In this document: positions 21,185 through 23,408 of the stretch, in pieces
Position numbering within the stretch: position 1 is the stretch's first letter
Layout: the number at the start of each line of letters is the position of its first letter
From: Rubrobacter indicoceani
GTDB lineage: Bacteria > Actinomycetota > Rubrobacteria > Rubrobacterales > Rubrobacteraceae
DNA: 64,000 nucleotides
NCBI RefSeq assembly: GCF_003568865.1
Contig: NZ_CP031115.1
Span: forward strand, 2,480,001-2,544,000
Direction: 5' to 3'
Position numbers and translations under genes: made by a program
The notes under the pieces: model-generated
The model's database searches: none
The model's input: only the letters and a program-made list of their open reading frames with translations
Told to the model about the DNA's origin: nothing

Positions 21185-21649
21185 TCAGACCGGTGTAAGG
21201 TCGAGCTCGCTCGTGATCTCGATGCTCCCCTTCAGGGACCGGGCGACCGGACAACTGTCCGCGTAGACCCGAAGGACCCGCTCTACCGTCTCGCGGTCCT
21301 CCTCGCTCGCGCTCAGGCGCATGGAGTGCTTTATGCGCTTGATGACGAGCACCTTCCCTTCGTCCTCGACCTCCCCGATCGTGTCGGCCTCAAGATTGTC
21401 AAACGACACTTGACGCGCTCCCAGCGCGCCCGCAAAGGTGCCGAGCAGTCACCCGCCCGCCGCTGCGACAACGTAGTCGAGCGTCGAGGCGTGTGGCTCT
21501 TCGGCCCCCGGCTCGACCCCGTAGTGCTCCGCGACCTCGCTATGAACCCCGAAGAGCACCGGCTCCTCCTCGCCCGGCACGTAGGCCCGCCGGACCTTCC
21601 CCTCCACCGGCTCTACCTTTACTCTAGAGACGTACTTTACCTCCGACAC
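21185..21649 (-). CDS. OsmC-family protein with in-frame TGA at the conserved Cys (candidate selenoprotein)
   Basis: 154 codons from a GTG at 21647-21649 preceded by AGAGAGGA. OsmC/Ohr proteins are thiol peroxidases with two cysteines. The sequence runs in one frame up to DYVVAAAGG, then a TGA at 21449-21451, then LLGTFAGALGARQV and the rest of the fold with the second cysteine in YADSCPVARSLKG. In the family the residue after GG is the reactive Cys, so the TGA sits exactly where selenocysteine would replace it. A GC-rich hairpin with a GGG loop follows 21 bases later. It lies 37 bases after an AhpD-like gene. The alternatives are a nonsense mutation or a sequencing error (TGC to TGA). Confidence 0.75.
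21412..21430 (-). promoter_or_regulatory. Candidate bacterial SECIS hairpin
   Basis: In the minus-strand transcript an 8-base-pair stem (GGCGCGCU with AGCGCGUC, one G-U pair) closes a GGG loop. The stem starts 21 bases and the loop 29 bases after the first base of the UGA codon. This fits the general bacterial SECIS layout: immediately downstream of UGA, a short stem and a small loop beginning with G. GC-rich DNA forms hairpins by chance, so this is supporting rather than decisive evidence. Confidence 0.55.
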
Positions 21650-21686
21650 GTTCCGGTCCTCTCTGTTGAGTATCTGCTCCTGATAC

Positions 21687-22313
21687 CTACCCGCAATGCT
21701 TGCCCGCAATGTCTGCCCCGTGCTCCCGGCGGAACAGGGCATGATACTCCTCGTTCGGGAGCTTCCCGCAGGCCAGTGACATCCGGTTCGTGAAGTTGTA
21801 CATGCTCGCTACCTCCGCCACGTCCCAGACCTCCTCCAGCGTGAGGCCGAAGCTCTGGAGGCGTTCGATGTCCTCCGGGGTGCATTCGAGGGGCTCGTTC
21901 GTAATCTTCACCGCGTAGTCGAGGATCGCCCTTCGCCTCTCGTCCAGCCCGGCCCGGCGGTAGTCGAGGGTAATGCGGTCGGCGAGGATCGGGTCCCCGA
22001 GGGCTTCGCGAAGGGCCGCCCCGTGAGCGACAAGGCAGTACAGGCAGCCGTTCTCCATCGAGACGGCGACCGCGATCATCTCCCTTTCAGCCACGCTTAA
22101 ATTCTCTGTCGGCTCGTGCAGCATCCTGTAGTGGTTAAACCACGCCGAGAGTCGCTCGGGCCGGAAACTGTATGCCCGGAACACGTTCGGTACGAACCCG
22201 ACCGTCTCCCGAGCCTTCCTGAAAAGCCCCTGCAGACCCTTCGGCAACTCCGACTCCTCCGGCACGGGAAACCAGCTTATAGGTGTGTCCGTCGCTTTCT
22301 CTGTGTCGGTCAC
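21687..22313 (-). CDS. AhpD-like peroxidase-related protein
   Basis: 208 residues, GTG start with AAAGGAG six bases upstream. The carboxymuconolactone-decarboxylase/AhpD motif is visible as [18 protein letters not shown] followed by HGAALREA, with the CxxC redox pair and the downstream histidine. [14 protein letters not shown] is typical of the 'peroxidase-related enzyme' subfamily. It would reduce peroxides or act as a disulfide reductase. Upstream of and co-directional with the OsmC-type gene, so the two probably form a small peroxide-defence operon. Confidence 0.88.

Positions 22314-22418: not shown

Positions 22419-23408
<990 letters not shown>

Follow-up and report, generated by a model that had tools for sequence, protein, structure and literature searches.

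In the actinobacterium Rubrobacter indicoceani, an osmC-family gene carries an in-frame TGA at the codon where the family has its reactive cysteine. Is this UGA read as selenocysteine (Sec) or as another amino acid, is it a genuine stop, or does it mark a decayed or misread gene? The gene lies in a 64,000-nucleotide stretch of contig NZ_CP031115.1, hereafter the window. The coordinates given by the first-pass annotation, 21185-21649, are correct; the strand, which had been left out, is minus. The following features are numbered along the window.

21185..21649, minus strand: osmC-family gene, predicted selenoprotein of 154 residues with Sec67 (sequence, frame, Pfam)
21657..21664, minus strand: Shine-Dalgarno-like AGAGAGGA, 7 nt 5' of the GTG (direct sequence reading)
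21649-21647, minus strand: start codon GTG; homologues start near the same residue
21449..21451, minus strand: in-frame UGA, predicted Sec67, at the OsmC reactive-Cys column (frame, homologue alignment, selection)
21412..21430, minus strand: SECIS-like hairpin, 8 bp, GGG loop, beginning 19 nt past the UGA (fold and conservation)
21251..21253, minus strand: Cys133 (SCPVARS), presumed to be the resolving cysteine; no exception in the alignment
21187-21185, minus strand: terminator TGA
21687..22313, minus strand: gene for a peroxidase-related CMD/AhpD-like protein of the CxxC form, lying 37 nt upstream (TIGR01926, 180 bits, cut-off 81.8)
22419..23408, minus strand: aldo/keto reductase gene (name assigned by reading the sequence), a recurrent upstream neighbour chiefly within Rubrobacteraceae

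The gene and the decoding capacity of its host

The TGA at 21451-21449 (residue 67) is the sole break in the frame that runs from the GTG at 21649 to the stop at 21185. A match to Pfam OsmC (PF02566) spans it at 52.9 bits, above the gathering threshold of 27.5, which confirms that one frame continues on both sides. Four further OsmC-family matches, all free of internal stops, are found in the host genome. When these proteins are aligned with the present one, their two conserved cysteines fall opposite residue 67 and Cys133, so that the earlier placement of the TGA at the reactive-cysteine column, as of an intact second cysteine in SCPVARS, holds.

The host genome (3.08 Mb in 3 contigs) encodes a tRNA-Sec (62.9 bits; ARAGORN concurs), adjoined by selB, a 629-aa frame scoring above cut-off. 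The gene adjacent to selB, which we take from its sequence to be selA, completes a cluster in which the three lie side by side. The selD gene (345 bits) contains one in-frame TGA, and so does each of two formate dehydrogenase-like genes. The host therefore decodes Sec whether or not the osmC-family gene is counted. Bacterial selenoproteins are expected in genomes endowed with SelA, SelB, tRNA-Sec and SelD, and all four components, which it had been proposed to look for, are present. The selD and formate dehydrogenase-like genes correspond to loci L050, L187 and L190; one of the formate dehydrogenases features the motif ARIUHSATV.

Conservation of the UGA and of the downstream hairpin

Once duplicates are removed, 86 homologues remain; 85 of them share the TGA of codon 67, and one has TGT (Cys). 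TGA-bearing homologues reside in Rubrobacteraceae, other Actinomycetota, Chloroflexota and Acidobacteriota. The same motif with TGA was found at more than 20 loci of one family (f1) and in genome G044 (44% identity). A scan of named genomes identified 78 loci, with TGA in all 76 that reach the reactive column, a sample biased to near relatives because short peptide patterns were used. In a search across the phylum the gene was found in 47 of 396 genomes. The sole other genome of the same genus that was searched (G001) has selB and no copy of the gene. Two distant TGA-bearing relatives (L177 and L178, 35–38% identity), marked by the motif UMMGT, belong to a different actinomycete family, and both genomes have a tRNA-Sec. 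The gene is broken over several frames, by mutation or sequencing error, at L182 (genome G023) and at L136 (Rubrobacter marinus), both with a tRNA-Sec. L184 (genome G028, C346) is a degraded second copy, gapped and bearing an additional TAA; an intact copy resides elsewhere in the same genome.

Stop-free matches reaching the column were found in only five genomes of the 396-genome phylum sample, all of one actinomycete family (f14). These homologues (L040, L170-L174) belong to the same subfamily, L040 sharing about 45% identity and the motif CLIGT, but differ from the Rubrobacter gene in having Cys for Sec and in residing in genomes devoid of tRNA-Sec (5 of 5). One paralogue in the family, L176, has lost that Cys. 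The first-pass annotation had suggested looking for Cys in OsmC homologues, and Cys is indeed at the column where the host lacks tRNA-Sec. Bacterial selenoproteins are recognized by an in-frame UGA where homologues have a conserved Cys, and this pattern is observed. Among 24 genomes tested that carry the UGA gene, 18 have a tRNA-Sec, G023 being counted with its broken copy. None was detected in the other six, all fragmented assemblies, one of which is rated 98% complete in 470 contigs; selB was above cut-off in none of the five of these that were searched.

The same data bear on a reading of the UGA as some other amino acid, either Trp or, via a mischarged tRNA-Sec, Cys. In principle, tRNA-Sec could be mischarged. 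In hosts without tRNA-Sec, however, the replacing residue is Cys rather than Trp, other genes in the window terminate at TGA, and the Sec machinery is complete, all of which makes such read-through very improbable.

Past the TGA, dN/dS between the Rubrobacter gene and seven relatives is about 0.16–0.29, as expected under purifying selection, and the second half of the gene is therefore translated in this frame. In the same comparisons dS falls about tenfold, to 0.09–0.18, in codons +1 to +13, while other parts of the gene show approximately 0.7–1.9. Within Rubrobacteraceae, codons +1 to +13 are also the more alike, with a codon identity of 0.81 versus 0.54 elsewhere (p = 1.5e-5).

The hairpin just past the TGA is present as first described, with arms at 21430-21423 and 21419-21412 (8 bp) and a GGG loop at 21422-21420. 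Its folding energy is ordinary for GC-rich sequence (z = -0.15 against dinucleotide shuffles). As shuffle energies gave no signal, synonymous recoding was taken as the test instead. Of 25 Rubrobacteraceae genes, 24 (96%) form the complete set of 8 pairs, as against 3.0% of recodings that preserve the protein; the hairpin stands above chance because it is conserved, not because of its folding energy. In 59 sequences from outside the Rubrobacteraceae, at least 7 pairs of the same register form in 59%, versus 8.5% of recodings, and about one fifth of them form neither of the two tested pairing registers well. All 25 Rubrobacteraceae genes have G as the first loop base (G27), a wobble position that the hairpin leaves unpaired, compared with 32% of the other CTN codons of the same genes (p ~5e-12). 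In the main register the partner of almost every wobble base is a base fixed by the codon, so that covariation is not expected to be informative. The hairpin is under selection. A small apical loop containing G, in a hairpin just past the UGA, is a feature of bacterial SECIS elements (PMC1088965), and is found here. With its wobble bases paired to fixed codon positions, this well-conserved element is a good test case for the fitting of a SECIS into a coding sequence.

Such constraint tells against a true stop, with which the gene would yield a short N-terminal peptide plus a C-terminal piece that has its own start. Read with the standard code, the two pieces do show up as distinct ORFs. Yet conservation of the hairpin and of its loop G extends to the wobble bases, Cys takes the place of the UGA in hosts without tRNA-Sec, the reactive residue itself would be lost, and the break would fall inside a helix of the predicted fold; termination at this codon is hence highly unlikely. 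Least credible is a pseudogene or assembly error, in which TGC or TGT became TGA by mutation or misreading: copies frameshifted in R. marinus and degraded in G028 lend it some colour, but the same TGA in independent genomes of several phyla refutes it, and both halves of the gene are under purifying selection.

The UGA at 21451-21449 is almost certainly read as selenocysteine (Sec67), as first proposed, on the combined strength of the Sec machinery, the Cys homologues, the conserved hairpin and the conserved TGA. By the established bacterial mechanism, SelB would bind the hairpin and bring Sec-tRNA to the UGA, and the ribosome would yield the 154-residue protein rather than halt after residue 66.

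Fold, proposed chemistry and gene neighbourhood

The predicted structure features the OsmC/Ohr fold (pLDDT 92.5). A fold search against the PDB retrieved OsmC/Ohr proteins, with only 9–17% identity to solved members; a phmmer search of PDB sequences with the protein gave no match. Fold and Pfam score together place the protein in the OsmC superfamily (PF02566). Its fold and the alignment columns of its two reactive residues are those of the Cys-type Ohr/OsmC peroxidases, from which it differs by Sec in place of the first Cys. Judging by family, the protein is fairly likely to be an OsmC/Ohr-fold thiol peroxidase with Sec as the peroxidatic residue. According to OsmC/Ohr chemistry, Sec67 would attack an oxidant such as an organic hydroperoxide, Cys133 would resolve the oxidized Sec67 by forming a selenenylsulfide with it, and the enzyme would be restored by a dithiol reductant. 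The neighbouring CxxC AhpD-like protein may be guessed to be one candidate reductant.

The CMD/AhpD-like gene is a probable operon partner. In several Rubrobacteraceae the osmC-family gene is accompanied by it, by the aldo/keto reductase gene, or by both. Beyond this family a single distant match, to the aldo/keto reductase, was found in G044, and no functional partner among the flanking ORFs recurs across the set; the largest cluster of flanking ORFs is made of antisense ORFs shadowing the osmC-family gene itself.

Relation to known OsmC selenoproteins

OsmC-like selenoproteins, cited as precedent in the first-pass annotation, are known in bacteria since 2005. Those reported in 2005 and 2008 are few marine sequences (3 and 5) with the motif UxxT (PMC1088965, PMC2398784), and reviews of 2022 and 2026 hold a single OsmC entry, UxxT. 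Rubrobacter xylanophilus was listed with five selenoproteins in a 2006 paper, in which OsmC is unmentioned. The survey proteins (PMC1088965, PMC2398784; NCBIfam NF041052, OsmC_like_Se) and the Rubrobacter protein have in common the OsmC fold, Sec at the reactive-Cys position and a downstream SECIS-like hairpin. In contrast to the UxxT of the former, the latter features ULLGT, and its relatives U[LM][LTA]GT. The Rubrobacter protein scores 33 bits with NF041052, NCBI's OsmC selenoprotein model, below the cut-off of 95, and no match above this cut-off was found in the host genome. The protein is of a known kind, and belongs to a widespread subfamily for which no curated model was found; on the open part of PMC, the UxxG(T) subfamily and its breadth appear to be new.

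Tentatively, the group may form a separate OsmC subfamily of Actinomycetota, Chloroflexota, Acidobacteriota and others, with Sec as the rule, Cys as a rare exception and no curated model, acting as a Sec-dependent peroxidase of stress-resistant bacteria, partnered in Rubrobacteraceae with the AhpD-like and aldo/keto reductase neighbours. The cultured group that contains Rubrobacter is known for radiation resistance. A distinct form of OsmC selenoprotein is present in many genomes, against the few marine survey sequences. Because gene callers unaware of Sec would split or truncate the gene, this peroxidase candidate has probably been missed in these genomes.

One NF041052 member, L195 of genome G427, has the motif ULLT; it falls far from the subfamily in the tree, on a very long branch that leaves its exact placement unsure. 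Alongside this UxxT selenoprotein, G427 also encodes L128, which belongs to the same subfamily as the Rubrobacter protein.
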